This document shows, piece after piece, positions 1 through 14,981 of a DNA stretch of 64,000 nucleotides (positions are counted from its first letter, which is position 1; each line of letters begins with the position of its first letter). The stretch is from the NCBI RefSeq assembly GCF_001428895.1, contig NZ_LMJA01000011.1, forward strand, positions 39,699 to 103,698. The letters are read 5' to 3'. Below the pieces are notes generated by a model. That model was not told the origin of the DNA. It saw only the letters and a program-made list of their open reading frames with translations, and ran no database searches. The position numbers were made by a program, and so were the translations under genes. The stretch comes from Mycobacterium sp. Root265 (GTDB lineage: Bacteria > Actinomycetota > Actinomycetes > Mycobacteriales > Mycobacteriaceae).

Positions 1-83
1 GCACGCTGGGCCCGGCCATGACCTACGGCTATCGCAGCGGTTACGCCGCCGCGACCGGCCAGTCCGCCCCCACCCCCGAGTGA
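1..83 (+). CDS. C-terminal fragment of a probable FAD-binding dehydrogenase (KstD/fumarate-reductase type)
   Basis: Only the last 26 codons are in the window. They read in the frame ending at the TGA at 81-83 and contain TLGPAMTYGYRSGYAAA. A Leu/Ile-Gly-Pro-Ala-Met-Thr-Tyr/Phe-Gly-Tyr segment near the C-terminus is typical of the FAD-contacting end of 3-ketosteroid Delta1-dehydrogenase-like and fumarate-reductase-like flavoproteins, so I infer that family. Substrate cannot be judged. The stop codon is embedded in the terminator hairpin that separates this gene from the convergent crotonase. Confidence 0.55.
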   Translation, partial: TLGPAMTYGYRSGYAAATGQSAPTPE

Positions 84-130
84 TTTCGGCGTGATTGGTT
101 GCGGCCAGCGCAACCAATCACGCCGAAATC
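82..130. terminator. Bidirectional terminator hairpin with perfect 22-bp arms
   Basis: Positions 82-103 and 109-130 are exact reverse complements separated by the 5-base loop gccag. The hairpin begins inside the stop codon of the upstream plus-strand gene and ends 11 bases before the stop of the convergent crotonase. There is no clear U-tract, which is common for mycobacterial terminators. Confidence 0.85.
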
Positions 131-140
131 GCAAAGGCGA

Positions 141-1058
141 CTAGGGCTGGTCTTTGACCGCGGCCTTCGGCGGGCCCGCGGTCTTCCAGTCCTCCAGGCC
201 GTCCTCGGCCAGTCCGACCGGGAACTTGTGCTCGTGCACCTGCGCCCAGTGGCTGTGGTTGAGTTCGTGCAGGGTGAAGCAGGCGTTCAGCGAGTTGTAG
301 AAACCCTGGTTGTCCTGGGTCTGGTTCACCGATTCCTTGACCAGCAGTGCCGCCATGGTCGGCACCTTGGCGATACGGCGGGCGAATTCGACCGTCTTGT
401 CGGCCAGTTCGTCGGCCGGGAAGATCTTGGACACCATGCCCAGCGCGTGCCCCTCCTCGACCGAGAGGGTGTCACCGGTGAGCATCAGCTCCTTGGTCTT
501 GCGGGCACCGAACTCCCAAGGGTGCGCGAAGTATTCGACACCGCACATGCCCAGCCGGGTGCCGACGACGTCGGTGAACCGGGTGTTGTCGGCGGCGACG
601 ATCAGGTCGCAGGACCACATCAGCATCAGCGCCGCCGCGTAGACGTCACCGTGCACCGAGGCGATGGTGATCTTGCGCAGATTGCGCCAACGCCGGGTGT
701 TCTCGAAGTAGTGATGCCACTCCTGCAGCATCAGACTCTCCGCGCCCTGCCGCGTCCCGCCGTTGACGGTGAAGCTGGGGTGCTGGTCCGGGCCCGGGGT
801 GTATTCGGCGCGCTGCACCTTGGAGCCGACATCGTGGCCCGCGGAGAACATCGGACCGTTGCCGCCGAGGATGACGACACGCACGGTGTCGTCGGCCTCG
901 GCACGCAGGAACGCCTCATGCAGCTCGACGAGCATGCCGCGGTTCTGCGCATTACGCGCCTCCGGCCGGTTCAGCATGATCCGGGCGATGGTGCCCTCGT
1001 CGAGGGTTTCGTATGTCACGAAGCGGTATTCGGGAGTCTCGTCTGCCATGAATCGCAC
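141..1058 (-). CDS. Enoyl-CoA hydratase/isomerase (crotonase superfamily)
   Basis: A 305-residue crotonase-fold protein, somewhat longer than the usual 260. The N-terminal part has the LNRPEARNAQ motif near residue 30 and an oxyanion-hole segment FSAGHDVG near residue 71. The second oxyanion segment is degenerate (ASVHGDVYAAAL), so hydratase versus isomerase or hydrolase activity cannot be assigned. It is the last gene of the minus-strand unit DUF35 - lipid-transfer thiolase - crotonase, the grouping seen in steroid and side-chain beta-oxidation clusters. The GTG at 1058 has AGGA five bases upstream. An ATG at 1049 is the alternative start. Confidence 0.88.
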   Translation of the reverse strand: MRFMADETPEYRFVTYETLDEGTIARIMLNRPEARNAQNRGMLVELHEAFLRAEADDTVRVVILGGNGPMFSAGHDVGSKVQRAEYTPGPDQHPSFTVNGGTRQGAESLMLQEWHHYFENTRRWRNLRKITIASVHGDVYAAALMLMWSCDLIVAADNTRFTDVVGTRLGMCGVEYFAHPWEFGARKTKELMLTGDTLSVEEGHALGMVSKIFPADELADKTVEFARRIAKVPTMAALLVKESVNQTQDNQGFYNSLNACFTLHELNHSHWAQVHEHKFPVGLAEDGLEDWKTAGPPKAAVKDQP

Positions 1059-1096: not shown

Positions 1097-2242
1097 CTAC
1101 AGCGAAAGGATGGTCGCCGACGCGGTGCCGGGGGCGCCGTACACCTGGGCCAGGCCGACGCGCGGATTGCCGGGGACCTGACGCTCCCCCGCTTCGCCGC
1201 GCAACTGCCGGACCAACTCGTGCATCTGACGCAGGCCCGAGGCACCGATCGGCTCGCCGTTGGCGATCAGACCGCCGTCGGTGTTGACCGGGATGGAACC
1301 GTTGATCTCGGTGGCGCCGTCGATCAGCAGCTTCTCCTGCTCACCGTCGGCACACAGCCCGGTCTCGGCCATGTGGATGACCTCGGCGCCGGCGTCGGTG
1401 TCCTGCAACTGGGCGATGTCGACGTCCTCGGGCCCGATTCCGGCGGCCTCGTAGGCGGCCTTGGCGGCGAACACCGTCGGCGAGGGATCCTCGTCCAGCG
1501 GCGCGGAGGTGGCGTGCACCTCATAGGCGCCGAAGGTGCGGGTGCGAATCTCACTGGCCCGCACGTAGACCGGCTTGTCGGTGTACTTGTGGGCGATATC
1601 GGCGCGGCACATGATGACCGCCGCCGCGCCTTCGTCGGGTGCGCAGAACATGTATTGCCGCAGCGGGTAGTTCAGCACCGGCGAGGCCATGATCTCCTCC
1701 ACGGAGATCTCCTTGCGCCGGAAGGCATTCGGGTTGAGCACGCCGTTGCGGAAGTTCTTGTTGGCCACCCGGGCCAGCGTCTCTTCGGAGATGCCGTGCT
1801 TGTGGATGTAGTGATTGGCCTTGATGCCGAAGAACTTGGTGGTCACGAACTGGCCGTTGTTGGCGTACCACTGCGGCAGCGCGAGTTTGGCCGGATCGTC
1901 GGTGAAGGCACCGCGCGGATGCTTGTCCAGGCCGATCGCGATACCGATGTCGTACTTGCCCAATCGGATGGTGTCCGCGGTCTGTTGGATGGCACTGGCC
2001 GAGGTGGCGCAGGCGTTGAAGACGTTGGTGAAGGTGATGCCGGTGAGGCCGACCAGGCGGGTGACGGCATCGGGGTTGGACACCTCGTAGCTGCCGCCGA
2101 ACCCGAACTGGATGTCCTTCCATTCCAGCTTCGCGTCGGCCAGCGCGCTGGTGATCGCCTCGGCACCCATTTCCATCGCGGTCTTGTCGAACCGGCCGAA
2201 CGGGTGGATACCGACGCCGATGATCGCTACATCGTTGCTCAT
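1097..2242 (-). CDS. Thiolase-like lipid-transfer protein (Ltp/SCPx-thiolase family)
   Basis: 381 residues with a thiolase fold: an N-terminal MSNDVAIIGVGIHPFG, a nucleophile-loop Cys in FNACATSASAIQ near residue 78, and a C-terminal GGLIANGEPIGASGLRQ segment. It lacks the C-terminal CxGGG motif of true acetyl-CoA acetyltransferases. That is characteristic of the Ltp-type proteins that act as retro-aldolases or beta-ketothiolases on branched or steroid acyl-CoAs. It starts 12 bases after the DUF35 protein. Members of this family are known to work as heteromers with a DUF35 OB-fold partner, so the pair probably forms one enzyme. The exact reaction is inferred. Confidence 0.85.
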   Translation of the reverse strand: MSNDVAIIGVGIHPFGRFDKTAMEMGAEAITSALADAKLEWKDIQFGFGGSYEVSNPDAVTRLVGLTGITFTNVFNACATSASAIQQTADTIRLGKYDIGIAIGLDKHPRGAFTDDPAKLALPQWYANNGQFVTTKFFGIKANHYIHKHGISEETLARVANKNFRNGVLNPNAFRRKEISVEEIMASPVLNYPLRQYMFCAPDEGAAAVIMCRADIAHKYTDKPVYVRASEIRTRTFGAYEVHATSAPLDEDPSPTVFAAKAAYEAAGIGPEDVDIAQLQDTDAGAEVIHMAETGLCADGEQEKLLIDGATEINGSIPVNTDGGLIANGEPIGASGLRQMHELVRQLRGEAGERQVPGNPRVGLAQVYGAPGTASATILSL

Positions 2243-2254
2243 GTCTGGGACTCC

Positions 2255-2668
2255 TTAAACCGGCTTGAACCAGAAGGTGACGAGCTCGTCACCGTCGGCA
2301 TCGGTGGCGAACGGCTCCATGGTCAGTTCGACCTCCATGCCGAATTCCAGCTTGGCGGGATCGTTTTCGGTGAGCCGGCCCTCGACACGGATCAGGTCGC
2401 CGAGTTGAACCAGTCCGACACCGAACGGCACGAAGTCCTTGCCGGTCGGCCCGGCATACGGCGCTCCGGGCGGGAAGCCCTGCGTCGTCCAGGCCACGAC
2501 GGTGCCGCGGCGGGGCAGCAGCAGATCGGCCATCTCGGCCTTGCTGCACTTGGGACAGCGCTCTTGACGCGGGAACGTCGTCGCGGAACACGCGCCACAC
2601 TGGCTGCCGATGAGTTGCGGATTCTCATCGGGCCAGGTGGAGATCTCGGGGGCAAGCGCCTTCTGCAT
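2255..2668 (-). CDS. DUF35 OB-fold protein with zinc ribbon, partner of the Ltp thiolase
   Basis: 137 residues. A rubredoxin-like zinc ribbon lies near residues 24-41 (CGACSATTFPRQERCPKC), followed by an OB-fold domain with the GTVVAWTTQGFPP stretch and a beta-rich C-terminus. This is the standard DUF35_N/DUF35 architecture. It is the first gene of the three-gene unit and sits directly upstream of its usual partner thiolase. The 78-base gap to the preceding MeaB-like gene contains a degenerate copy of the island operator, so transcription may restart here. Confidence 0.88.
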   Translation of the reverse strand: MQKALAPEISTWPDENPQLIGSQCGACSATTFPRQERCPKCSKAEMADLLLPRRGTVVAWTTQGFPPGAPYAGPTGKDFVPFGVGLVQLGDLIRVEGRLTENDPAKLEFGMEVELTMEPFATDADGDELVTFWFKPV

Positions 2669-2733
2669 CAGGCTCCTCGGCTACCTGTAGAAGAATGTAT
2701 TGACGAATTCGTACAGTAACATTTCTCGAAAGT

Positions 2734-2748
2734 GGAAACCACATTCTC
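2734..2748. promoter_or_regulatory. Degenerate copy of the island operator dyad
   Basis: GGAAAC-CAC-ATTCTC matches the right arm of GAGAAT-N3-ATTCTC exactly and the left arm at 3 of 6 positions. It lies upstream of the DUF35-Ltp-crotonase unit and just overlaps the end of the MeaB-like gene. A further half-site (AGAATG) is at 2692-2697. Binding is inferred from similarity to the two near-perfect sites at 4800 and 7743. Confidence 0.45.
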
Positions 2749-3625
2749 ATTGAGGTTTGACCTGCGCACCATCGAGTAGCCGAGCGGTCGCCGCATAGAC
2801 ATCGAGGTCGCGGGTGGCCACCCGCCCGGCCAGTTCATCGAGACCGGAATCAGACTGCAGCGCACTCTGTGCCAGCGACAGAATCTGCAGCCGGGCACGA
2901 ATCGCCCGTCGCTCGGCAGTATCGGTGCGATGGTGGGCGTCGATGGCGACGATCAGTTCCTCGATACCGGTGTTCTGCGACGCGATGATCTTGAGGATCG
3001 GCAACCCGGTCTCGATGTGCAGGTCCCTGGCGGTCTGATCGGCACCGTCGCGGTCGGCCTTGTTGACGACGATGATGTCGGCGATCTCCAGCAGACCCGC
3101 CTTGGCGGCCTGGATCGCATCTCCGGCCCCCGGGTTGAGGATGGCCACCGTCGGGTCGGCCACGGCGGCGATCTCGATCTCTGACTGACCCACTCCCACC
3201 GTCTCCAGCACGACGATGTCGTAGTGCAGTGCCGCCAGCAGCCGGATCGCCGCGGGCACCGCGGCGGCCAACCCGCCGAGGTGTCCGCGGGTGGCCACCG
3301 AACGGATCATGACGTCGGGGTCGTTGATGTGGGCGGCCATCCGGATCCGGTCACCGAGCAGCGCTCCCCCGCTGTACGGCGAGGACGGGTCGACGGCCAG
3401 CACCGCGACCCGTAACCCCCTGGCCCGGTACGCCGATACGAGCACCGCGACGGTGGTGGACTTTCCCGCGCCCGGCGGACCGGTGATCCCGACGGTGCGC
3501 ACCGGCGATGCGGGCAGCATCGCCAGCACCTCGTCGCGACGCTCGCTTTCGACCAGGCTCAGCAGCCGGCCTGCGGCACGCTGCGATCCGGCACGGGCGG
3601 CGTCGAGCAGTTCCTGGATGTCCAT
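2747..3625 (-). CDS. MeaB/ArgK-type GTPase, probable chaperone of the B12-dependent mutase
   Basis: 292 residues from the ATG at 3625. It has a P-loop GPPGAGKS at about residues 49-56, a DPSS switch, an ETVGVGQSE Walker-B-like segment and the NKAD base-specificity motif. This is the MeaB/ArgK G3E GTPase family, which protects and reloads B12-dependent acyl-CoA mutases with adenosylcobalamin. The mutase subunits are encoded about 7 kb away in the same island (10098-12123), which supports that role. It starts 11 bases after the thiolase stop. The upstream in-frame extension lies within the thiolase end and was not used. Confidence 0.88.
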   Translation of the reverse strand: MDIQELLDAARAGSQRAAGRLLSLVESERRDEVLAMLPASPVRTVGITGPPGAGKSTTVAVLVSAYRARGLRVAVLAVDPSSPYSGGALLGDRIRMAAHINDPDVMIRSVATRGHLGGLAAAVPAAIRLLAALHYDIVVLETVGVGQSEIEIAAVADPTVAILNPGAGDAIQAAKAGLLEIADIIVVNKADRDGADQTARDLHIETGLPILKIIASQNTGIEELIVAIDAHHRTDTAERRAIRARLQILSLAQSALQSDSGLDELAGRVATRDLDVYAATARLLDGAQVKPQ

Positions 3626-3636
3626 CGACTGCGACT

Positions 3637-4773
3637 TTATGGCGCGACCTCGATGACCGTGGCCGAACCCATGCCGCCGCCCGCGCACATCGCGGCCACG
3701 CCGATACCACCTCCGCGCCTGCGCAGTTCATGAACCAGGGTGACGATCATCCGGGCGCCGGTGGCCGCGACCGGATGCCCCAGCGAACACCCGCTGCCGC
3801 TGACGTTGACCTTGTCCGGGTCGATGTCGAGCAGCTTGATGGTGGCCACGCACATCGCCGCGAATGCCTCGTTGATCTCGAACAGGTCGACATCGGAGAG
3901 CGAGATCCGGGCCCGGGTCAGCGCTTTGGTGATGGCCTCCACCGGGGCGAGCCCGGTGAATGCCGGATCCACCCCGACCGATGCCCAGGCGCGGATGGTG
4001 CCGAGCGCGGGCAGTCCGAGCCGGTCGCTGGCGATGGCAAGGGCCGCCGAGGCGTCGTTGGCGCCGCAGGCATTGCCCGCGGTGATCGAGAAGCCGTCGA
4101 TCTCCGGGTGCAGCACCTTGAGTCCGGCCAGCTTCTCCAAGGTGGTGTCGCGGCGGGGATGTTCGTCGGTGTCGAATACCCCGTGCGGGGTGTCGATGGG
4201 CAGGATCTCGTCCTTGAAGCGTCCCTCGTCGATGGCCGTGATGGCCTTCTGATGTGAGCCCAGCGCCCAGGCGTCCATCTCCTCGCGGGTCACCCCGGCC
4301 TTGACCGCGGCGTTCCAGCCGACGGTGATCGACATGTCCATATTCGGTGCGTCGGGCCGGTCGGGATGGGTCGGCGGGAACCATGGCTGGAACTCCTCGC
4401 CCACCTGGCGGATGAACCGCGGCGAGGTGGAGGCCGAGTTCACCCCACCGGCGATGATCAGCTGATCCATCCCGGACCGGATGCTCGCGGCGGCAGTCTG
4501 CACCGCCGCCTGTCCGGCGGCGCAGTGCCGGTTGAGCGCCAGTCCGGGTACCGAGGTCAGGCCGGCGGTGACGGCCGCGTGCCGGGCGACCACGCCGCCG
4601 CCATAGAGGCCCTCGCCGAGGATGACGTCATCCACCGGGGCACCGTCGAGTCCGCCGGCCACCGCTGCGACCACATGGTCGGCGAGCACGTAGGCGTCGG
4701 TATCGCGCAGTGTGCCCTTCTTGGCGGTGCCGATCGGTGTGCGCACTGCGGAGACGATGACGGCCTCAGGCAT
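3637..4773 (-). CDS. Acetyl-CoA acyltransferase (thiolase, FadA type)
   Basis: 378 residues carrying the full thiolase active site: nucleophile Cys in NRHCAAGQ near residue 84, the EINEAFAA motif, the GHPVAATGARM histidine and the C-terminal CAGGGMG cysteine. It should cleave beta-ketoacyl-CoA to acetyl- or propionyl-CoA plus a shortened acyl-CoA. The ATG at 4773 has AGGGG eight bases upstream. A GTG at 4791 is less well placed. It is first in a unit with the MeaB-like GTPase and is divergent from two SDR genes across the dyad at 4800. Confidence 0.92.
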   Translation of the reverse strand: MPEAVIVSAVRTPIGTAKKGTLRDTDAYVLADHVVAAVAGGLDGAPVDDVILGEGLYGGGVVARHAAVTAGLTSVPGLALNRHCAAGQAAVQTAAASIRSGMDQLIIAGGVNSASTSPRFIRQVGEEFQPWFPPTHPDRPDAPNMDMSITVGWNAAVKAGVTREEMDAWALGSHQKAITAIDEGRFKDEILPIDTPHGVFDTDEHPRRDTTLEKLAGLKVLHPEIDGFSITAGNACGANDASAALAIASDRLGLPALGTIRAWASVGVDPAFTGLAPVEAITKALTRARISLSDVDLFEINEAFAAMCVATIKLLDIDPDKVNVSGSGCSLGHPVAATGARMIVTLVHELRRRGGGIGVAAMCAGGGMGSATVIEVAP

Positions 4774-4799
4774 CGGAACTGCCCCTTTCACGCTGGAAT

Positions 4800-4826
4800 G
4801 AGAATGTTATTCTCTCAGTCTGAGAG
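4800..4826. promoter_or_regulatory. Island operator: GAGAAT-GTT-ATTCTC with an overlapping second dyad
   Basis: A perfect 6-3-6 dyad occupies 4800-4814. It shares its right arm with a second 6-3-6 dyad, CTCTCA-GTC-TGAGAG, at 4812-4826. It sits between the divergent thiolase and SDR genes. Possible -10 elements lie inside it on both strands (TATTCT on plus, TAACAT on minus), the expected geometry for a TetR-type repressor. The regulator is not identified. Confidence 0.7.
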
Positions 4827-4851
4827 TGCCAGTTGCAAGAAGGAGAAGTAG

Positions 4852-5616
4852 ATGGACATCGCCGGTAGCTCCGCGCTCGTCGTAGGTGGCGCAGGAGGCC
4901 TTGGAGAAGCGACGGTCCGCCGATTGCACGCTGCGGGCGCCAAAGTGGTGGTCGCAGATCTGGCCGACGAGAAGGGCCCCAAGCTCGCCGAGGAGCTCGG
5001 CGTGAAGTACGTCCGCACCGACGCGACCTCCGAGGAATCCGTCAACGCCGCCGTCGCCGAGGCGGAAGCCCTTGCCCCGCTGCGTATCTCGGTGGACACC
5101 CACGGCGGCCCGGCGGCCGGTGGCCGGCTGATCGGCAAGGACGGTTCGCCGCACGGCCTGGAGGGGTTCGAGACGACGGTCAAGTTCTATCTGACCGCGG
5201 TGTTCAACGTGATGCGGCTGGCCGCAGCGGCCATCGCGCGCACCGAACCGCTGGAAGAAGGCGGCCGCGGCGTCATCGTCAACACCGCATCCATCGCCGG
5301 CTACGAGGGACAGATCGGCCAGCTGGCCTACGCCGCGGCCAAGGGCGGCGTGCTGGGCATGACGCTGGTGGCCGCACGCGACCTGTCCCCGTTGGGCATT
5401 CGGGTCAACACCATCGCCCCCGGCACCATCAACACCCCGGCCTATGGCAAGGCCGCCGACCAACTGGAGCAGTACTGGGGCCCGCAGATCCCGTTCCCCA
5501 AGCGGATGGGCCGCTCGACCGAGTACGCCCAACTCGCCCAGAGCATCATCGAGAACGACTACCTCAACGGTGAGATCATCCGTCTCGACGGGGGTCTGCG
5601 GTTCCCGCCCAAGTGA
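4852..5616 (+). CDS. Short-chain dehydrogenase, HSD10-like, with altered catalytic motifs
   Basis: 254 residues with the Rossmann motif VGGAGGLGEA near residue 12, a Ser in NTASIAGYEGQ and the YAAAK active-site pair. The overall pattern, including the long loop after beta-4 and the LDGG(L)R end, resembles 3-hydroxyacyl-CoA dehydrogenase type 2 (HSD17B10). Two usual features are missing. The NAG motif is replaced by DTHGGPA, and the Asn of the catalytic tetrad is replaced by Tyr (VKFYLTAVF). A beta-oxidation 3-hydroxyacyl-CoA dehydrogenase is the likely role, with some doubt about activity. GGAG lies upstream of the ATG, and it overlaps the next SDR by four bases. Confidence 0.85.
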   Translation: MDIAGSSALVVGGAGGLGEATVRRLHAAGAKVVVADLADEKGPKLAEELGVKYVRTDATSEESVNAAVAEAEALAPLRISVDTHGGPAAGGRLIGKDGSPHGLEGFETTVKFYLTAVFNVMRLAAAAIARTEPLEEGGRGVIVNTASIAGYEGQIGQLAYAAAKGGVLGMTLVAARDLSPLGIRVNTIAPGTINTPAYGKAADQLEQYWGPQIPFPKRMGRSTEYAQLAQSIIENDYLNGEIIRLDGGLRFPPK

Positions 5617-6350
5617 GCTCGCTCGCCGGTAAGACGGCATTCGTCGCCGGAGCCAGCCGCGGGATCGGGGCCACCATCGCCCACGCGCTCGCCGCGGCGG
5701 GTGCATCGGTGGCGGTCGCGGCCCGTTCCGAACAGCGCGGCAAGATGCCCGGCACCATCGGCTCGGTGGCGGATTCGATCCGCGCACAGGGCGGTCGTGC
5801 GTTGGCCGTCCCATGCGATGTCACCAGCGAGGAGTCGGTCGACAGCGCTGTCGCCGAGACGGTTTCGGAGTTCGGCGGGATCGACATCCTGGTCGCCAAT
5901 GCGGGCGTGCTGTGGCTGGGACCGGTGGAATCGACACCGCTCAAACGCTGGCAGCTGTGCCTGGACGTCAACCTGACCGGCGTCTTCCTGGTGACCAAGG
6001 CGGTGATCCCGCACGTGCGGGCCCGTGGCGGCGGATCGCTGACGGCCATCACCACCACCGGCGTCGGGATGGCCGGCGCGAACGCCTACTGGGTGTCCAA
6101 GGCTGCCGCCGAGCGGCTCTACCTGGGTTTGGCCGACGATCTGCGCCCGGACAATATCGCGGTGAACTGCCTCAGCCCGTCCCGGGTGGTGCTCACCGAG
6201 GGGTGGCAGGCCGGTGGCGGCGGAGTCGAGATCCCGCCCGAGTTCGTCGAACCACCCGAGGCGATGGGCCGGGCCGCGGTGCTGCTCGCCGGGCAGGACG
6301 CCACCGGGATCACCGGCACCGTGCAGCGCTCCGAGGAACTCACCGTCTGA
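5613..6350 (+). CDS. Short-chain dehydrogenase/reductase
   Basis: 245 residues from a GTG that overlaps the preceding stop (GTGA), so the two SDRs are translationally coupled. It has the classical motifs: ASRGIGA cofactor glycine loop, NAG (VANAGVLW), the catalytic Tyr/Lys in YWVSK and a Thr-rich stretch (TAITTTG) where the Ser normally sits. An NAD(P)-dependent hydroxyl/keto oxidoreductase for a pathway intermediate is inferred. It converges on the acyl-CoA ligase, with seven bases between the stop codons. Confidence 0.88.
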   Translation: MSSLAGKTAFVAGASRGIGATIAHALAAAGASVAVAARSEQRGKMPGTIGSVADSIRAQGGRALAVPCDVTSEESVDSAVAETVSEFGGIDILVANAGVLWLGPVESTPLKRWQLCLDVNLTGVFLVTKAVIPHVRARGGGSLTAITTTGVGMAGANAYWVSKAAAERLYLGLADDLRPDNIAVNCLSPSRVVLTEGWQAGGGGVEIPPEFVEPPEAMGRAAVLLAGQDATGITGTVQRSEELTV

Positions 6351-6357
6351 TCTTCGA

Positions 6358-7719
6358 TCAGGAGTACTGGTCGCGCAGTACCCGCCGCAGCACCTTTCCC
6401 GACGGCAACCGCGGGATCGCGTCGACGAAGACCACCCGGCTCGGGCGTTTGTAGGACGACAGCCGCTCCCCCACCAGCGCGATCAGTTCCCGCTCGGCGA
6501 CCGGCGTTCCGGCCGCGACGGCCGCGATGACCGCCTCACCATTCACGCCGTCGGGGATGCCGAACACCGCGCAGTCCTCGACCGCCGGGTGCCCGTGCAG
6601 CACCGCCTCCACCTCCGCGGGCGCCACCTGGAAACCGCGGACCTTGATCATCTCCTTGAGCCGGTCGGTGATCCGCAGCCAGCCATCGCTGTCCAGTTCG
6701 CCGATGTCCCCGGTGCGGTACCAGCCGTCGTCGAACGCGGCCGCGGTCGCGTCGCCGGGCAGGTAGCCGACCATCGCCGACTCCGAACGAACCTGGATCT
6801 CACCGCTGCCGGCGATCCGCACCGCCACACCGGGCACCGGTTTGCCCACCGTGTCCAACCGTGCGTCTCCGATCGGGCAGCAGGCGATCACCGGTAGTTC
6901 GCTGGCGCCGTAGGCCGAAATCCATGGCACACCGACCCGTTCGGTGACGGTATCGGCGACGCTCTTGGTGACCGGAGTCGCGCACCACATGATGTAGCGC
7001 AGCGAGGACAGGTCGTAGTTCTCCAGGTCCGGATGCGCGGCGATGGCCAGAGCGATGGGCGCGACGGCCATTTCGATGGTGATGCGGTCATCCTGGATAT
7101 GGGACAGCATCCGGTTGATGTCGAAGCGTGGATGCAGGCGCATCCAGGCGCCGGCGTCGAGCACGGTGGCGATGTTGAGCAGCCCGAGGATGTGCGAGGG
7201 CGGCGTCATGATCTGCATACGATCGTCGGCCGTGAGACCGAGCGCGGTCCGCCAGTGCCGCACCGCCGCAGCGAAGCCCGCATGTGTGTGCCGCACGGCC
7301 TTGGGCATCCCGGTCGTCCCGGAGCTGAACACGAACAACGCGTCGGCCTCGGGCAGCACCGGTGCCCATCCGCCGTCGGCGGGTGAAATCGGCTCGTCCA
7401 GATGCAGCATAGGGATCAGGTCGGCCAGCACCGCGGCATCCCCGACGCCCAGCACCGGCGAGGTCAGCTCCAGCGCATGCGCAACCTCGGCCGGTTTCCA
7501 GGCCGAACTGAGCAGCACCACCGATGCACCCAGGCGCCAGATCGCCCGCAGTGCAACGACGAACTCGGGACGGTTGGACGACATCAGCGCGACCCGGTCA
7601 CCGGCGCTCACGCCGCGGGCGGCGAGCGTGGCGGCCATCCCGTCGGACAGCGCGTCCAGCTCGGCCATGGTGTACTGACGGTCCCCGAATGCCAGGACCG
7701 GTTGGTTCTCTGCAGCCAT
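6358..7719 (-). CDS. AMP-dependent acyl-CoA synthetase (ANL superfamily)
   Basis: 453 residues, short for a FadD protein. It has the P-loop FSSGTTGMPK near residue 131, the YGASE motif, WYRTGD, the DRLKEMIKVRGFQ hinge and a C-terminal PSGKVLRR lysine, so both ANL domains are complete. It activates a carboxylic acid to its CoA thioester and is a candidate entry enzyme of the island. The ATG at 7719 was chosen over the adjacent TTG at 7722. It is divergent from the ferredoxin gene across the dyad at 7743. Confidence 0.9.
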   Translation of the reverse strand: MAAENQPVLAFGDRQYTMAELDALSDGMAATLAARGVSAGDRVALMSSNRPEFVVALRAIWRLGASVVLLSSAWKPAEVAHALELTSPVLGVGDAAVLADLIPMLHLDEPISPADGGWAPVLPEADALFVFSSGTTGMPKAVRHTHAGFAAAVRHWRTALGLTADDRMQIMTPPSHILGLLNIATVLDAGAWMRLHPRFDINRMLSHIQDDRITIEMAVAPIALAIAAHPDLENYDLSSLRYIMWCATPVTKSVADTVTERVGVPWISAYGASELPVIACCPIGDARLDTVGKPVPGVAVRIAGSGEIQVRSESAMVGYLPGDATAAAFDDGWYRTGDIGELDSDGWLRITDRLKEMIKVRGFQVAPAEVEAVLHGHPAVEDCAVFGIPDGVNGEAVIAAVAAGTPVAERELIALVGERLSSYKRPSRVVFVDAIPRLPSGKVLRRVLRDQYS

Positions 7720-7742
7720 CAACCGACTACCTTATCCGTAAC

Positions 7743-7759
7743 GGAGAATGATATTCTCC
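7743..7759. promoter_or_regulatory. Island operator: 7-3-7 dyad GGAGAAT-GAT-ATTCTCC
   Basis: A perfect 17-base dyad between the divergent acyl-CoA ligase (start 7719) and ferredoxin (start 7792). It has the same arms and 3-base spacer as the site at 4800. TATTCT on the plus strand and TATCAT on the minus strand inside it could serve as -10 elements, so a bound repressor would shut both promoters. Confidence 0.72.
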
Positions 7760-7791
7760 ATTTGTCAGAATCCGACGCCCAGGAGAGCTTG

Positions 7792-8088
7792 ATGACGGCC
7801 GAACCAGTGCCCGCCGACGAAGTGACGATCCTGCTCGACGGTGCCCGCACCACGACGCTGCCGGTCGCAGGCGACACGCTGCTGGAAACGGCACGACGCG
7901 CCGGTCTGACTCCCCCGTTCGCCTGCGAGGCGGGTAACTGTGGCACCTGCATCGCCAAACTCACCGAGGGCAGCGCGACCATGAAGGTCAACGACGCGCT
8001 CGACGACGACGAGGTCGAAGAGGGCTATGTCCTGACGTGCCAGGCGATCCCGAACTCGGGCCCGCTGACGGTCGATTACGACGACTGA
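7792..8088 (+). CDS. 2Fe-2S ferredoxin (plant type)
   Basis: 98 residues from an ATG preceded by AGGAGAG. It has the plant-type cluster motif CEAGNCGTC near residues 44-52 and a distal Cys in VLTCQA, giving four ligands. It would pass electrons to or from an oxygenase or reductase, but no P450 or Rieske oxygenase gene lies in the window, so its partner is elsewhere or is one of the flavin/F420 enzymes. Its 3' end overlaps the convergent CoA-transferase by 13 bases. Confidence 0.9.
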   Translation: MTAEPVPADEVTILLDGARTTTLPVAGDTLLETARRAGLTPPFACEAGNCGTCIAKLTEGSATMKVNDALDDDEVEEGYVLTCQAIPNSGPLTVDYDD

Positions 8089-9116
8089 GGCACAACGTCG
8101 AACATCGGTGCCGGCCGGTACTCCGGTTCGAAACCCTCCACCCGGATCGGGCTGGCCACCAGCCGGAAATCACCCGCGGTGACCACCATCTCCGGGGTGT
8201 CCTCCAACGCCTGCGGCAGTGAGCGCACCGCCGCCGCCGGGATGCCGAGCGGCTTGAGTCTGATCTCCCAGTTCACCGCAGTGTCGGAGGCCAGCGCCGC
8301 CGACACGAGCGCCAGCACGTCCTCGCGGGCCGCGGCCCGCTCCACCATGGTCTCGAAGCCGGCGATTCCCGCCTCCCCCGCAAAGGAACGCCAGAACCCG
8401 TCATGGGTGATGAACAGCGCGAGGTGGCCGTCAGCGGTCGGAAAGAGCTGTGCGGGAACGTAATAGGAGTGCGCCCCGAACGGGTAGCGCTTCGGCTCGG
8501 CGCCGTCGTTCAGGTAGGCCGCGGCGCGGTAGTTCAGTTGCGAGAGCATGACGTCGCGCAGGCACACGTCCACCTGTCCGCCGTCGCCGGACACGATCTT
8601 CGCGAGCAGGCCCAGCGCGGCGGTCAGACCCGTCGAATTGTCGGCGGCCGAGTAGCCCGGCAGCGTGGGCGGCCCGTCCGGGTCACCGGTCATCGCGGCC
8701 ACGCCGGTCGCGGCCTGGATGACGTAGTCGAAGGCCGGGTCGTCCCCGCCGTGCAGGCCGAATCCGGTGAGTGCGACGCACACGATCTTCTCGTTGTACC
8801 GGCGCAGGTTCTCATACGTCAGGCCCAGCTTCTTGATCGCCGAGGGCTTCATGTTGACCAGCAGCGCGTGCGAATCGGCCACCAGCTCACCGAGTCTGGC
8901 GCGGCCGTCCTCGGATGCCAGGTCCAGGCATATGCTGCGCTTGTTGCGGTTGAGGCTGGCGAAATAGCTGTCGCTGACCTGCCGGGAGATCTCACCGCCG
9001 GGCGGCTCCACCTTGATGACCTCGGCGCCGAGGTCGGCGAGCAGCATGGTGGCGTACGGGCCTGCCAGCATCACGCCGATCTCGATGATGCGGATGCCGG
9101 CGAGCGGGCCCGTCAC
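8076..9116 (-). CDS. Class III CoA-transferase (CaiB/BaiF family)
   Basis: 346 residues from the GTG at 9116. A TTG at 9137 is possible but falls inside the repeat element. It begins with the family's GPLAGIRIIEIG pattern and has the catalytic Asp in PAFDYVIQAATG near residue 132. The family either transfers CoA between carboxylates or, as in alpha-methylacyl-CoA racemase, epimerises 2-methylacyl-CoAs. Both fit a branched-chain route. It is the last gene of the mutase operon. Confidence 0.88.
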   Translation of the reverse strand: MTGPLAGIRIIEIGVMLAGPYATMLLADLGAEVIKVEPPGGEISRQVSDSYFASLNRNKRSICLDLASEDGRARLGELVADSHALLVNMKPSAIKKLGLTYENLRRYNEKIVCVALTGFGLHGGDDPAFDYVIQAATGVAAMTGDPDGPPTLPGYSAADNSTGLTAALGLLAKIVSGDGGQVDVCLRDVMLSQLNYRAAAYLNDGAEPKRYPFGAHSYYVPAQLFPTADGHLALFITHDGFWRSFAGEAGIAGFETMVERAAAREDVLALVSAALASDTAVNWEIRLKPLGIPAAAVRSLPQALEDTPEMVVTAGDFRLVASPIRVEGFEPEYRPAPMFDVVPQSS

Positions 9117-9125
9117 AACCGTCTG

Positions 9126-9147
9126 CTCTTCGCGCAAGCGCTCATCA
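9126..9147 (-). repeat. Short dispersed repeat, copy 1, at an intercistronic junction
   Basis: On the minus strand TGATGAGCGCTTGCGCGAAG begins with the TGA stop of the F420 oxidoreductase. Nearly the same sequence is at 10518-10536, and a variant lies inside glgP at 46465-46486. Within the element, GCGCTTGCGC is a small dyad. Confidence 0.65.
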
Positions 9148-10101
9148 CTGCACCTGCTTGGCGAGTTCGGCGATCACCTCACGCGTCCGATACTTGGACG
9201 CGATCAACTCGTCACGGTTATCACCGATCGGCAGCAGGCGCACCGACAGGTCGGTGACACCGGCGTCGGCGAAGGCCTTGAACCGCTTGAGGATCGATTC
9301 TTCGTCACCGGCGGCGCAGAGATCGCCGACGGTGCGGGCATCCCCACGGTCGAGCAGTCGCTGATAGTTGGGCGAGGTTTCGGCCTCGGCCAGGATGCGG
9401 TTGGCCCGGTCCTTCGCCTCGTCGATCTCGGAATTCGCGCACAGCGTGACCGGGATGCCCGCCACGATGCGCGGCGCGGGTTTGCCCGCCCCGGCGGCGG
9501 CCTTGTTGATCTTGGGGGCGATGTGCTCGCCGATGGCCTTCTCATCGGCCATCCACAGCGAGGTCCCGTCGGCGTGCTCGCCGGCGATCTGCAGCATGAC
9601 CGGGCCGAGAGCCGCCACCAGTACCGGAAGCGGGGTCGCGGCGCCGAGCGCGGTCGGATTGTGCACGGTGAAGGTGTCGTTCTCGACATCCACCGGGCCG
9701 GGCCCGGCGATGGCGGCATTGAACACCTGCAGGTAGTCGCGGGTGTAGGCGGCGGGCTTGTCATAGGGCAGGCCCAGCATGTCCCGGATGATCCAGTGAT
9801 GCGACGGCCCGACCCCGAGAGCCAGCCGCCCGTTCGACACGGCATGCACCGAAAGCGCCTGACGAGCAAGGGCAATGGGGTGCTGCGCCTGCAGCGGCAC
9901 CACGGCGGTTCCGAGTTCGATGCGGGTGCTGTGTGACGCCATCAGCGCCACCATGGTCAGCAGATCAAAATCGTCGGGCACCTGCGGCATCCAGGCGGTG
10001 GCCAGGCCGGCCGAGTCGGCCCATTCGATATCGGAGATCAGCTTGCTGACCTTGCGGGCCATATCGCCGCGCTCGGCCCCGATCATCACGCCGAGTCTCA
10101 T
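9145..10101 (-). CDS. Luciferase-like F420-dependent oxidoreductase
   Basis: 318 residues in the bacterial luciferase-like (LLM) family: an N-terminal MRLGVMIGAERGD, TRIELGTAVVPLQAQHP near residue 60, GRLALGVGPSHHW, and AGEHADGTSLWM in the second half. In mycobacteria this subgroup is normally F420-dependent. I believe it corresponds to the TIGR03564 (MSMEG_4879) group, but that is recalled and not searched. It overlaps the B12-binding subunit gene by four bases, so it is coupled to the mutase. An F420H2-dependent reduction of an unsaturated or carbonyl intermediate is inferred. Confidence 0.87.
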   Translation of the reverse strand: MRLGVMIGAERGDMARKVSKLISDIEWADSAGLATAWMPQVPDDFDLLTMVALMASHSTRIELGTAVVPLQAQHPIALARQALSVHAVSNGRLALGVGPSHHWIIRDMLGLPYDKPAAYTRDYLQVFNAAIAGPGPVDVENDTFTVHNPTALGAATPLPVLVAALGPVMLQIAGEHADGTSLWMADEKAIGEHIAPKINKAAAGAGKPAPRIVAGIPVTLCANSEIDEAKDRANRILAEAETSPNYQRLLDRGDARTVGDLCAAGDEESILKRFKAFADAGVTDLSVRLLPIGDNRDELIASKYRTREVIAELAKQVQ

Positions 10102-10499
10102 GACTTGGAAACCTTCTCGGTGAGCGCGCGCACATCGGTCACCAGTTTCTCCAGCGACGTCCCGGTGGGGAACACCGCGGCCGCACCGGCATCCAGCAGC
10201 TTCTGCACATCGGCTTCGGGAATGGTGCCACCGACCACCACGGCGATATCGCCGGCATCAGCGGCCCGCAGCGCGTCCACAACACGGGTGGTCAACCCCA
10301 CATGCGCGCCGGAGAGGATCGAAAGGCCCACCAGAGCAACGTCTTCCTGCAGCGCGATGGAGACGATGTCCTCGACACGCTGACGGATACCGGTGTAGAC
10401 GACCTCGAAGCCGGCATCACGCAGCGTGCGCGCGACAATCTTGGCGCCCTTGTCGTGACCGTCCAGACCAGGCTTGGCGACCAATACGCGTGTCGCCAT
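10098..10499 (-). CDS. Cobalamin-binding small subunit of an acyl-CoA mutase
   Basis: 133 residues from the ATG at 10499. It carries the base-off/His-on B12 motif LDGHDKG (Asp13-x-His15-x-x-Gly18), then VGLSILSGAH and VVGGTIP, the usual SxL and GG contacts of the Rossmann-like cobalamin domain. It is a separate polypeptide, as in archaeal methylmalonyl-CoA mutase and isobutyryl-CoA mutase, and follows its catalytic subunit by 34 bases. His15 should be the lower axial cobalt ligand. Confidence 0.93.
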   Translation of the reverse strand: MATRVLVAKPGLDGHDKGAKIVARTLRDAGFEVVYTGIRQRVEDIVSIALQEDVALVGLSILSGAHVGLTTRVVDALRAADAGDIAVVVGGTIPEADVQKLLDAGAAAVFPTGTSLEKLVTDVRALTEKVSKS

Positions 10500-10517
10500 C
10501 AGCTGTGCCCTCTCTTC

Positions 10518-10533
10518 TTCGCGCAAGCGCTCA

Positions 10534-10536
<3 letters not shown>
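10518..10536 (-). repeat. Short dispersed repeat, copy 2, at the mutase stop
   Basis: On the minus strand TGATGAGCGCTTGCGCGAAG starts with the stop codon of the mutase large subunit and fills most of the gap to the B12-binding subunit. It is placed exactly as copy 1 is relative to its upstream gene. Confidence 0.65.
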
Positions 10537-12123
<1,587 letters not shown>

Positions 12124-12136
12124 CACTGGATAACGT

Positions 12137-12164
12137 ACTTGCTCAAAATGAGAATGCCAATACC
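12137..12164. promoter_or_regulatory. Mutase promoter/operator, first copy of a 28-bp repeat
   Basis: This stretch contains GAGAAT-GCC-AATACC (12150-12164), one perfect arm of the island dyad plus a degenerate arm. It covers the -35 and spacer of the predicted mutase promoter. 26 of its 28 bases recur in the same orientation at 12277-12304. Confidence 0.55.
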
Positions 12165-12276
12165 GCTGGCTGAAAACATGCACTGTGACGGCCTGCAGCA
12201 CACGCCGACGCGCCCGTCACGGGTTCCTCGACGACACCCCGGCGGCACGTCGTGCCTGGACATGAGCGATTATGAC

Positions 12277-12304
12277 ACTTGCCGAAAATGAGAATGCCAA
12301 TACC
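12277..12304 (+). promoter_or_regulatory. SDR-ligase operon promoter/operator, second copy of the 28-bp repeat
   Basis: TTGCCG (12279-12284), a 16-base spacer and TACCAT (12301-12306) form a sigma-70-like promoter for the SDR gene starting at 12344. The half-dyad GAGAAT-GCC-AATACC (12290-12304) lies in the spacer. Confidence 0.55.
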
Positions 12305-12343
12305 ATCAGGGGAAGCAAGACCCCTTCCGTCCGAGGAGTCAGT

Positions 12344-13192
12344 ATGTCCAGCGAGCAACGTCCGCTTGCCGATCGCACCCTGGTGGTCTCCGGTGGCAGC
12401 CGCGGTATCGGGCTGGCCATCGCCCTAGGCGCCGCCAAGCAGGGCGCCAATGTGGTGTTGTTGGCCAAGACCGCCGAGCCCCACCCGAAGTTGCCGGGAA
12501 CCGTGCACACTGCGGTCGCCGATGTCGAGGCCGTCGGCGCCAAAGCGGTGGCCGTGGTCGGCGATGTCCGCAAGGAAGAAGACGTCCAGCGGGCCATCGA
12601 CACCGCGGTGCAGACCTTCGGCGGCGTCGACATCGTCATCAACAACGCCAGCGCGATCGCCACCGAGCCCACCGAGGCGCTCGCGGCGAAGAAGTTCGAT
12701 CTGATGATGGACATCAACGTGCGCGGCACCTTCCTGCTCACCAAGGCCGCGCTGCCCCACCTGCTGCAGTCCGCAGCAGCCCACGTCATCACCTTGGCGC
12801 CACCGCTGAACCTGAACCCCTACTGGCTGGGCGCGCACCCCGTCTACACGGTGTCCAAATACGGGATGACGCTGCTGTCGCTGGGCTGGGCGCAGGAGGC
12901 CGCCCTACATCGGGAAGGCTCCAATATCGGGTTCAGCTGCCTGTGGCCGCAGACCTACATCGCGACATCGGCGGTGACGAACCTGGCCGACGGCGACAAC
13001 CTGGCCTCGGCATCGCGCAGCCCGGAGATCATGGCCGACGCCGCGACCCAGATCCTGCTCGGTCCGCCCAAGGATGCCAACGGCCAGACCTACATCGACG
13101 CCGACGTCCTGACCCACGCCGGAATCACCGACCTGTCCCGTTATGGCGGTGGCGACGATCCCATCTGGGATATCTTCGTGGACAAATCATGA
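12344..13192 (+). CDS. Short-chain dehydrogenase (HSDL2-like)
   Basis: 282 residues from an ATG preceded by GAGGAG. It has the SGGSRGIGLAI cofactor loop and NNASAI in place of NNAG. The catalytic region is HPVYTVSKYGM, with Tyr and Lys in YTVSK. The C-terminus is longer than in ordinary SDRs and resembles hydroxysteroid dehydrogenase-like protein 2, without the SCP2 domain. It overlaps the following ligase by four bases (ATGA). A dehydrogenase step on a pathway intermediate is inferred. Confidence 0.87.
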   Translation: MSSEQRPLADRTLVVSGGSRGIGLAIALGAAKQGANVVLLAKTAEPHPKLPGTVHTAVADVEAVGAKAVAVVGDVRKEEDVQRAIDTAVQTFGGVDIVINNASAIATEPTEALAAKKFDLMMDINVRGTFLLTKAALPHLLQSAAAHVITLAPPLNLNPYWLGAHPVYTVSKYGMTLLSLGWAQEAALHREGSNIGFSCLWPQTYIATSAVTNLADGDNLASASRSPEIMADAATQILLGPPKDANGQTYIDADVLTHAGITDLSRYGGGDDPIWDIFVDKS

Positions 13193-14682
13193 GTATCTCG
13201 CTGCTGCTGGAGATGGCGTCCTCGACCGATCCGGACCGCACGGCGGTCGTATCGGGTGACCTGCGGTTGACCACCGGCGAACTGAGCGAGCTCGCCGACG
13301 GCGGCGCCGGCGTGGTGGCCGCCTCGGGGGCCCAGCATGTCGCCTATGTCGGCGCCGGCGGCGCCCTGCTGCCGCTGCTCTTGTTCGCCTCGGCGCGTGC
13401 CGGAGTGCCGGTGACACCGCTGAACTACCGGCTGTCCCACGACGGCCTGCGCGCGCTGATCTCGCGGCTACCGGATCCGCTGGTCGTGGTGGACGACGAG
13501 TACCGCGCCGCCGTCGGCGACGGGTTCCGGGTGATCGGGTCGGCGGAGTTCCTGGCCGCCGCCCGCACCGCCGAGCCCGCGGCCGAGTTTCCCGATCCCG
13601 ACTCGGTGGGCGTGGTGCTGTTCACCTCCGGCACCACCTCGGCGCCGAAAGCCGTTGAGCTCACCCATAACAACCTCACCAGCTATATCACCGGCACGGT
13701 CGAGTTCGCCTCCGCCGAACCCGGTGACGCCGCCTTGATCTGCGTGCCGCCCTATCACATCGCAGGCGTTTCGGCGGCGCTGTCGAACCTGTATGCCGGC
13801 CGGAAGATGGTGTATCTCACGCAGTTCGATGCCCGGGAGTGGGTGCGCCTCGTCGCATCCGAAGGGGTCACCTCGGCCACCGTGGTGCCGACCATGCTGG
13901 ACCGCATCGTCACCGTGCTGGAATCCCAGAGCACGGCGCTGCCGACGCTGCGCACGCTGGCCTACGGCGGATCCAAGGTGGCACTTCCGCTGGTACGCAA
14001 GGCTCTTGAACTGCTGCCTGCGGTCGGCTTCGTCAACGCCTACGGCCTCACCGAGACCAGCTCGACGATCGCGGTGCTGACCCCCGACGATCACCGGGTC
14101 GCACTGAGCTCCGATGATGACGCGATCGCCAAGCGGCTCGGCTCCGTCGGCCAGCCGGTGCCCAGCATCGAGGTGCAGATCCGCGGCGAGGACGGAACCG
14201 TCCTGGGCGCAGGCGAAACCGGGGAACTGTTCGTGCGCGGTGAGCAGGTCTCCGGCCGCTACACCGGTATCGGCTCGGTGCTCGACGAGCAGGGCTGGTT
14301 CCCCACCAAGGATGTCGCGACCCTCGACGCGGACGGCTACCTCTATATCGGTGGACGCTCCGATGACACCATCATCCGCGGCGGCGAGAACATCGCGCCC
14401 GCCGAGATCGAAGATGTACTCGTCGAGCACCCGCATGTGCGGGATTGCGCGGTGGTCGGCCCCGAGGATCCCGAGTGGGGCCAGATCATCGTCGCGGTCG
14501 TGGTCCCCGCGGCCGGTGCCGAACCGCAACCCGAGGAACTCCGGGAGTTCGTCCGCGCGCAGCTGCGCGGATCCCGCACCCCGGACCGGGTCGTCTTCCG
14601 CGACGAGTTGCCCACCAACGCGACCGGCAAGGTGCTGCGCCGCGAACTCGTCAGCGAATTGAACGCAAAGGAGCCCGCATGA
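13189..14682 (+). CDS. AMP-dependent acyl-CoA ligase (ANL superfamily), second in the island
   Basis: 497 residues. FTSGTTSAPK P-loop near residue 143, YGLTETSS, a GGENIAPAEIED hinge region and a C-terminal TNATGKVLRRE lysine are present. The usual TGD reads TKD (WFPTKDVATLD), a small departure in the ATP-binding loop. It is coupled by ATGA overlaps to the SDR before it and the small protein after it. A second ligase implies that a downstream free acid is re-activated, or that the two enzymes take different substrates. Confidence 0.9.
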   Translation: MSISLLLEMASSTDPDRTAVVSGDLRLTTGELSELADGGAGVVAASGAQHVAYVGAGGALLPLLLFASARAGVPVTPLNYRLSHDGLRALISRLPDPLVVVDDEYRAAVGDGFRVIGSAEFLAAARTAEPAAEFPDPDSVGVVLFTSGTTSAPKAVELTHNNLTSYITGTVEFASAEPGDAALICVPPYHIAGVSAALSNLYAGRKMVYLTQFDAREWVRLVASEGVTSATVVPTMLDRIVTVLESQSTALPTLRTLAYGGSKVALPLVRKALELLPAVGFVNAYGLTETSSTIAVLTPDDHRVALSSDDDAIAKRLGSVGQPVPSIEVQIRGEDGTVLGAGETGELFVRGEQVSGRYTGIGSVLDEQGWFPTKDVATLDADGYLYIGGRSDDTIIRGGENIAPAEIEDVLVEHPHVRDCAVVGPEDPEWGQIIVAVVVPAAGAEPQPEELREFVRAQLRGSRTPDRVVFRDELPTNATGKVLRRELVSELNAKEPA

Positions 14683-14981
14683 TCAAGAACGGCACCCGTC
14701 TGCAGAGCCAGGTCTGCGACACCCAGGTCATCGTGGTGCGCGCCTCCGAGGGGCTCGAGGACCTGCGCGCCGGCGGCGCACCGCTGATCCCCGTCGGCGA
14801 GACCGCCGCCGAGGGCCTGTCGCTGGATCCCGCACTGTCCGACGGCAATCTGATGGGCAAGCGCTACGTCGATGACAGCGGCGCGGAGATCCTGGTGACC
14901 AAGGCCGGCGCGGGCACGCTCAGTATCGGCAGCACCCCACTGGCGATCAAGGAAGCGAAGCCGCTGCCTGCCAGCGACTGA
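14679..14981 (+). CDS. Conserved-looking 100-residue protein of unknown function
   Basis: I cannot place it in a family. It is 100 residues, overlaps the ligase stop by four bases (ATGA), and is the last gene of the SDR-ligase operon. Visible features are a single Cys in QSQVCDTQVIVVRA, a Gly/Pro-rich centre, GKRYVDDSGAEILVTKAGAGTLSIG, and no signal peptide or membrane segment. The translational coupling suggests it works with the ligase, perhaps as a structural or metal-binding partner, but this is inference. Confidence 0.75.
   Translation: MIKNGTRLQSQVCDTQVIVVRASEGLEDLRAGGAPLIPVGETAAEGLSLDPALSDGNLMGKRYVDDSGAEILVTKAGAGTLSIGSTPLAIKEAKPLPASD

Follow-up and report, generated by a model that had tools for sequence, protein, structure and literature searches.

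The sbm operon of Escherichia coli converts succinyl-CoA to methylmalonyl-CoA and then to propionyl-CoA with a mutase, a decarboxylase, a CoA-transferase and argK, and its accessible description reports that methylmalonyl-CoA epimerase has to be added (PMC5512728). In the anaerobic indoleacetate pathway of Aromatoleum (IaaL-IaaGH-IaaF), as excerpted in PMC8360864, a CoA-transferase is combined with a mutase for the arylsuccinyl-CoA/benzylmalonyl-CoA pair. An actinobacterial mutase (ActD or MatBQ, with MatB and MatQ as the large and small proteins) is proposed in the available sections of PMC5719088 to handle hexylmalonyl-CoA and pentylsuccinyl-CoA in actinonin and matlystatin biosynthesis, and the plasmid-borne ibc cluster of Mycolicibacterium sp. 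ELW1 uses a 2-hydroxyisobutyric acid (2-HIBA)-CoA ligase, according to the available text of PMC13188929. Here, we describe a gene cluster in a 64,000-nucleotide stretch of Mycobacterium sp. Root265 (NZ_LMJA01000011.1:39,699-103,698; the window), whose host genome (G000) is 6.67 Mb in size. The cluster encodes a two-subunit adenosylcobalamin (AdoCbl)-dependent acyl-CoA mutase (MutL and MutS), a MeaB-type GTPase, a CaiB-type CoA-transferase and an F420-type LLM oxidoreductase. We give about an even chance to the reading that the cluster serves the catabolism of branched or substituted dicarboxylic acids, with a distinct AdoCbl acyl-CoA mutase at its centre. The enzyme family and the logic of the module are known; the clade and the pathway are apparently uncharacterised, and no description of this cluster or mutase group was found in the literature searched, with most subscription journals and preprints outside its scope.

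The mutase belongs to a distinct clade. Residues are numbered according to Propionibacterium shermanii methylmalonyl-CoA mutase (MCM). MutL keeps Y89, Q197, R207 and H244 and is changed at five positions (L117, A243, D247, G328 and V330). This signature and the four retained residues are found together in 95 of 124 aligned rows (92 distinct sequences), which comprise the window, 80 named loci, 10 further actinobacterial rows (two genes appear twice) and four plasmid copies. The other 29 rows (26 distinct sequences), consisting of 25 actinobacterial rows, the MCM of two species, HcmA and the MCM of the window genome itself, all display F117, Y243, E247, H328 and Q330, and no row of the alignment is mixed. 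The usual five residues are also observed in six mutases from plasmid records (two from Streptomyces, and those of Acetoanaerobium, Ilyobacter, Halopenitus and Methylibium). A 43-row maximum-likelihood tree sets its 17 signature rows apart by a branch with a support of 100/100, at which the tool warns that long branches meet. Y89 and R207, which we take to be the carboxylate-binding pair of MCM, are present in all 95 signature rows, and F117, Y243, E247, H328 and Q330 of MCM are absent from them. The retained pair and the five changed positions point to a carboxylate-bearing substrate with a bulkier remainder; we infer from these residues that MutL would act on an acyl-CoA with a free carboxylate and a bulky side chain.

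MutL finds its best match in the Protein Data Bank (PDB) in the large subunit of 2-hydroxyisobutyryl-CoA mutase (HCM; 4r3u). A separate B12-binding subunit adjoins the large subunit and meaB lies nearby, as is also the case for the plasmid copies. However, MutL contains Y, A and R at MCM positions 89, 116 and 207, where the 4r3u and PM1 rows contain I, D and Q. The corresponding Ile90, Asp117 and Gln208 of HcmA presumably define HCM, and an HCM or isobutylene pathway was ruled out on these residues. The isobutyryl-CoA mutase type, which we assume to be marked by Phe and Gln at positions 89 and 207, is likewise inconsistent with the Y and R of MutL. The locus thus resembles HcmAB and the ELW1 ibc cluster, as far as the available text describes the latter, in its two-subunit mutase, its auxiliary MeaB-type protein and its occurrence in a mycobacterium, but lacks the HCM-specific residues and the plasmid-borne ibc layout with the 2-HIBA-CoA ligase. 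The window genome contains two more PF01642 genes, an MCM-type pair on contig C1.

A minimal form of the module is found on plasmids of Sulfitobacter, Paraburkholderia, Marinobacter and Diaphorobacter in the order crotonase-MutL-MutS-CaiB-GTPase. The plasmid MutL proteins are 56-59% identical to the window MutL (at most 59% among the matches listed), and the window and Paraburkholderia proteins share 53% (CaiB), 57% (MutL) and 52% (MutS) identity. The plasmid GTPases are annotated as GTP-binding or hypothetical proteins; Pfam identifies MeaB in the Paraburkholderia protein, to which the other three are 44-50% identical. A transporter gene of the TRAP or tripartite tricarboxylate type directly follows the module in three of the four plasmids, with DctP confirmed for Paraburkholderia, and a TRAP substrate-binding gene is located about 4.5 kb upstream of the Marinobacter module. 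The regulator annotated beside the module is IclR-type in Sulfitobacter and Diaphorobacter and KdgR, presumably also of the IclR family, in Paraburkholderia. Seven records of the plasmid collection are at least 70% identical to the Paraburkholderia MutL, and the next are at most 49% identical among the matches listed. The four plasmids therefore carry the sbm-type gene set (mutase, MeaB-type GTPase, crotonase and CoA-transferase) as one gene row; in mycobacteria, the set is split across two loci that share an operator, op15. We take ArgK to be MeaB-type, ScpB to be a crotonase and ScpC to belong to a different transferase family from CaiB. As far as the accessible account of sbm (ScpA, ArgK, ScpB and ScpC) extends, both systems unite a mutase, an argK-type gene, a decarboxylase or crotonase and a CoA-transferase in one module. 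Unlike sbm, the present system has a two-subunit mutase with changed residues, a CaiB-type transferase, an F420 LLM protein in actinobacteria and a presumably bulkier substrate.

An exact copy of the 15-bp operator op15 (GGTATTGGCATTCTC) stands at the mutL promoter in the window and in all 80 named loci. These loci are the best 80 of 415 relatives found, and because they were recovered partly with a peptide pattern that reads through op15, the set is biased for op15 counts; the fair count comes from 17 independently found loci, of which 16 contain an exact site and one contains a site with one mismatch. At up to two mismatches, op15 was not found in L149 (from another family of the class) or in the four plasmid loci. 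The window genome has 12 sites at up to two mismatches, compared with none for the reversed control, and the only exact site outside the window (C27:53647) lies between a crotonase and a ligase gene. Given the extra copies at sdr3 and at C27:53647, op15 is conserved as DNA. The crotonase (G000:C27:52915-53688), which diverges from this third exact site, is the best match in the window genome to the plasmid-operon crotonase (38% identity and 132.7 bits; next, 85.7 bits). Among 31 genomes searched, the window genome included, 14 have this crotonase, and op15 is near its start in 14 of 14 (six exact and eight with one mismatch).

MutL and the trans-encoded crotonase are inherited together. The genus sample consists of 198 genomes drawn evenly from a larger group, and the sets scanned for MutL and for the crotonase, whose handles match, were treated as one draw. 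At the MutL threshold (E 1e-150), 153 genomes pass; the hit of G099 is a non-orthologue (47%), leaving 152 MutL orthologues. The raw table contains 152 genomes with both genes, one with MutL only (G099), three with the crotonase only and 42 with neither (Fisher p 3e-38, phylogeny uncorrected), and moving G099 gives 152, 0, 3 and 43, respectively. In an alignment with enoyl-CoA hydratase 6lvp, the Glu144 position is kept and Gln occupies the Glu164 position in 18 of 18 crotonase copies (14 mycobacterial and four plasmid). We take these positions to be those of the hydratase glutamates, with their catalytic roles, and the Gln makes ordinary hydratase chemistry unlikely, to judge by the alignment. 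The crotonase also opens a second unit (G000:C27:52912-58030; L170:7413-12531) of crotonase, ligase, amidohydrolase and FadD3-family ligase, where op15 and a palindromic operator occur together; the ligase is remotely similar to cyclohexanecarboxylate-CoA ligase. A VOC protein beside the crotonase was considered as an epimerase and rejected, being present in the available flank of just two of 14 loci, the window genome included.

The core of the locus is conserved across the genus. In a first sample, MutL is present in 17 of 24 same-genus genomes with 85-94% identity, and no such MutL is found in 16 other-genus genomes, where the nearest full-length protein is 51% identical and one partial protein is 54% identical. 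The closest MutL proteins among the named records (95-97%) are those of Mycolicibacterium sp. P9-22, M. frederiksbergense LB501T and Mycobacterium sp. MBM. The mutL, mutS, LLM and caiB genes occur together in 17 of 17 first-sample loci, although caiB is cut by a contig end in one, and the order mutL-mutS-LLM-caiB is observed in 78 of the 80 named loci, the other two reaching a contig end 85 and 722 bases past mutL. The term "island", used in an earlier note on this DNA, does not fit a locus whose MutL orthologue occurs in 152 of 198 genomes; this conservation rules out a mobile island, and a phage origin was rejected because the phage collection yielded just two remote mutases (44% and 35%). 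Further genes are frequent in the named loci, where counts are limited by the flanks: fadEa (70/80), fadEb (70/80) and ech2 (69/80). The fadEb-fadEa-ech2 set is missing at this place in the window and in the five closest named loci (L058-L062); the window genome carries the three genes on contig C25, where an exact palindrome precedes them (61, 74 and 70% identity to the L063 genes). Within the same flank limits, a P450 gene lies beside the cluster in 18 loci and a TetR gene (at 16333 in the window) in three, and DUF35, Ltp, EchA and DUF1295 are outside the conserved set (13, 11, 9 and 4 of 80 loci, respectively). Ltp/DUF35 was rejected as a core component on this frequency, which leaves little weight for the earlier proposal that the pair releases a branched unit. 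Close copies of the core outside the genus suggest horizontal transfer: L132 in Nocardia aurea (88% MutL identity), L150 (G262) in a genome from a different genus of this family (87%) and L149 (G236) in one from a different family of the class (84%).

CaiB scores 152 bits against CoA-transferases and at most 73 bits against racemases. Among NCBIfam models, CoA-transferases match it best, though none reaches the cut-off, and it contains an Asp aligned with those of formyl-CoA transferase and the plasmid CaiB, which we take to be the family III transferase aspartate. On these grounds, CoA transfer is likelier than epimerisation; of the two roles proposed earlier, the exchange of CoA is retained and epimerisation recedes. 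For the FadE partners, PimC and IpdE2 give the highest scores, which lie far below the cut-off, and FadE is closest in the PDB to Tcur3483 and 4x28, both steroid side-chain enzymes.

In the proposed pathway, ligases, the paired acyl-CoA dehydrogenase and other beta-oxidation-type enzymes would trim a larger acid to a substituted succinate. CaiB would then place or move CoA onto one carboxyl group, generating a substituted succinyl-CoA, and MutLS, kept active by MeaB, would move the CoA-carbonyl group to the neighbouring carbon, generating an (alkyl- or aryl-methyl)malonyl-CoA. Finally, the trans-encoded crotonase would decarboxylate the substituted malonyl-CoA to a straight-chain acyl-CoA for ordinary beta-oxidation. 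The net logic would resemble that of the E. coli sbm operon widened to bulky succinates, and the same carbon-skeleton rearrangement is known from anaerobic alkane and auxin degradation. The general claim of an undescribed B12-dependent acyl-CoA pathway with a carbon-skeleton rearrangement, made in the earlier note, is well supported by the distinct mutase clade and its residues, the conserved core, the op15-linked trans crotonase and the minimal plasmid operon, and the pathway is undescribed in the literature searched. The fuller proposition is more tentative and falls slightly short of an even chance: an undescribed mutase class, present in about three-quarters of the sampled mycobacterial genomes and on scattered proteobacterial plasmids, would serve an aerobic, F420-tied pathway that converts bulky succinyl-CoAs via malonyl-CoAs to linear acyl-CoAs. 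Mycobacteria are aerobic; the Iaa pathway is anaerobic. The CoA-transferase and mutase logic is common to both; the plasmid-module partner is a crotonase, in contrast to the decarboxylating acyl-CoA dehydrogenase of the excerpted Iaa description, and IaaG was likened by description.

Several observations weigh against this pathway. The LLM gene is core in actinobacteria and is not found in the plasmid operons, and the protein has no step in the scheme. The fadE pair and ech2 of the window strain are located away from the cluster. Three genomes of the genus (G042, G155 and G161) have the crotonase without a MutL orthologue, and the available flank of six of 14 crotonase loci lacks the neighbouring ligase. 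A crotonase that lacks Glu164 could be an isomerase or a hydrolase, and hydratases predominate among its nearest solved structures and NCBIfam models, with the models all below the cut-off among the matches listed. No epimerase was recognised in the module, and the sbm operon is reported to be incomplete without one. A palindromic operator of the locus does not occur near mutL at 11 or more of 12 positions in any of the 80 loci. Because the palindrome also occurs at other catabolic genes, the actual substrate may be a larger ring compound for which the mutase provides one stage only. In the literature searched, no assay was found for any of the clade's enzymes.

The mutase may instead run in the reverse direction, which we regard as unlikely: a 2-alkylmalonyl-CoA, possibly with a quaternary alpha-carbon as in a gem-dimethyl terpenoid, would be converted to a substituted succinyl-CoA and then dehydrogenated by FadE as in the ethylmalonyl-CoA pathway. 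The retained Y89 and R207 and the remote similarity of the FadE pair to a dicarboxylyl-CoA dehydrogenase are compatible with this direction, which would unblock quaternary carbons and in which, according to the available sections of PMC5719088, ActD/MatBQ is proposed to run from hexylmalonyl- to pentylsuccinyl-CoA. The actinobacterial origin and the proposed alkylmalonyl/alkylsuccinyl-CoA pair are shared with ActD/MatBQ, likened here by description. However, that system is biosynthetic, with a carboxylase-reductase and an epimerase, and CaiB, crotonase and LLM are not mentioned in those sections; no carboxylase or carboxylase-reductase turned up in the scanned window frames or among the annotated plasmid-module genes, and plasmid modules with a crotonase and CaiB and no annotated FadE suit the succinate-to-malonate direction better.

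Less probable still is a role in degrading the side chain or rings of steroids, bile acids or other polycyclic compounds, where Ltp/DUF35, the FadE pair, P450, a Rieske oxygenase and the mutase would act on a large ring-derived acyl-CoA. The PDB neighbours of FadE, the P450 adjoining the cluster in 18 of 80 loci and the palindromes near a Rieske oxygenase, amidohydrolases and a FadD3-family ligase argue for it, but Ltp and DUF35 occur in only 11 and 13 of 80 loci and no ring enzyme is annotated among the five plasmid-module genes; to our knowledge, steroid pathways use no B12 mutase. That MutL is a diverged methylmalonyl-CoA or 2-hydroxyisobutyryl-CoA mutase with its usual substrate is very improbable, since the shared Pfam family and the two-subunit layout of HCM, the best PDB match, are outweighed by the missing I90/D117/Q208, the MCM-type pair already on contig C1 and the separate clade with five otherwise constant positions changed in 95 of 95 rows.

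The genes of the cluster had been described in the earlier note as sharing one operator motif, but two are present: op15 (12150 and 12290) and the palindrome GAGAATNNNATTCTC (4800 and 7744). At up to three mismatches, the window shows no enrichment of the palindrome (11 found versus 8.6 expected, with as many in 24 of 100 shuffles), which stands out there at exact sites only. The window genome contains eight exact sites, and 94 sites at up to two mismatches versus six for the reversed pattern. At 11 or 12 of 12 positions, the palindrome lies near the starts of lig1 (67/74 loci), fdx (50/56), meaB (34/36), sdr1 (41/59), the thiolase gene (7/13) and the TetR gene c21 (11/13). Of 4000 random 290-base stretches drawn from these loci without removal of true sites, 88 contain it, and all 80 loci together contain 164 matches versus none for the reversed pattern. 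A single operator for all genes was rejected, as the best palindrome match is 9 or 10 of 12 positions in each of the 81 mutL regions. A TetR protein (G000:C11:12888-13607; L165) that is 78% identical to c21 of L109 has an exact palindrome just upstream of its gene and is, by position, a candidate regulator of the GAGAATNNNATTCTC regulon. Other sites are found near a Rieske oxygenase, amidohydrolases, FadE-like genes, a P450 and a FadD3-family ligase (752.6 bits versus a cut-off of 657), and the palindrome may therefore mark a larger catabolic regulon in which the mutase pathway is a single branch. On contig C27, a paralogous LLM gene (L168:1385-3533; 53% identity to the window LLM) adjoins a P450 that is 64% identical to the P450 beside the cluster, and an exact palindrome directly precedes a 2-oxoacid:ferredoxin oxidoreductase-type gene (PF01855/PF01558; L171:9697-11858).

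Table 1. Features of the cluster in the window. Loci are counted among the 80 named loci; gene counts are low where the flank is short.
Feature	Position	Strand	Match	Loci
EchA crotonase (accessory)	141-1058	-	NF006140, 397 bits (cut-off 280)	9/80
Ltp-type thiolase (accessory)	1097-2242	-	PF22691	11/80
DUF35/ChsH2-type OB protein (accessory)	2255-2668	-	PF01796	13/80
MeaB-type GTPase chaperone	2747-3625	-	PF03308; TIGR00750, 236.4 bits (just below cut-off 240.75)	47/80, flank-limited
Thiolase (thl)	3637-4791	-	TIGR01930, 352.6 bits (cut-off 240.55)	16/80, flank-limited
Palindromic operator GAGAATGTTATTCTC, between thl and sdr1	4800-4814	.	exact	
SDR sdr1	4852-5616	+	profile match	63/80
SDR sdr2	5613-6350	+	profile match	51/80
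Acyl-CoA (AMP) ligase lig1	6358-7722	-	PF00501	75/80
Palindromic operator GAGAATGATATTCTC, between lig1 and fdx	7744-7758	.	exact	11 or 12 of 12 positions at lig1 in 67/74
[2Fe-2S] ferredoxin fdx	about 7792-8088	+	PF00111	75/80
CaiB-type family III CoA-transferase	8076-9137	-	PF02515, 271 bits	77/80
F420-type LLM oxidoreductase	9145-10101	-	TIGR03564, 343 bits (cut-off 234)	78/80
MutS, B12-binding small subunit	10098-10526	-	PF02310	79/80; remaining locus ends 85 bases past mutL
MutL, large subunit of two-subunit AdoCbl acyl-CoA mutase	10534-12123	-	PF01642, 652.8 bits	
op15 operator GGTATTGGCATTCTC at mutL	12150-12164	-	exact in window	
Second op15 copy, at sdr3	12290-12304	-	exact	
SDR sdr3	12272-13192	+	profile match	66/80
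Acyl-CoA (AMP) ligase lig2	13189-14682	+	profile match	61/80
Small conserved protein (99 aa), directly after lig2	14682-14981	+	no Pfam family at 1e-4	

Gene identities in the window were taken from Pfam and NCBIfam profile matches (Table 1). All enzymes that the earlier note had named are found where it placed them, apart from the crotonase, which is present but lies just outside the interval given for the cluster. The mutL frame is open to 12201, and 12123, the start already favoured there, is the first likely Met and the probable start. The LLM start and the mutS end share four bases, and the true start of sdr3 is probably at 12344. The 99-residue protein that follows lig2 may belong to the pathway; the longer frame that contains it (p14445) matches 64 of 80 loci. 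A perfect inverted repeat with 22-base arms (window 82-130), perhaps a terminator, is located just 3' of echA. An Rfam scan of the window at the gathering threshold identified tRNA only, with no cobalamin riboswitch or other known RNA element.

If the proposed succinyl-CoA to malonyl-CoA pathway is correct, the small set of B12-dependent acyl-CoA mutases would gain a new substrate class, and B12 would gain a physiological role in mycobacteria besides propionate metabolism. The pathway would also explain how mycobacteria could break down branched diacids that stop beta-oxidation. Members of this mutase family can be found easily by their five-residue signature and the 15-bp operator.

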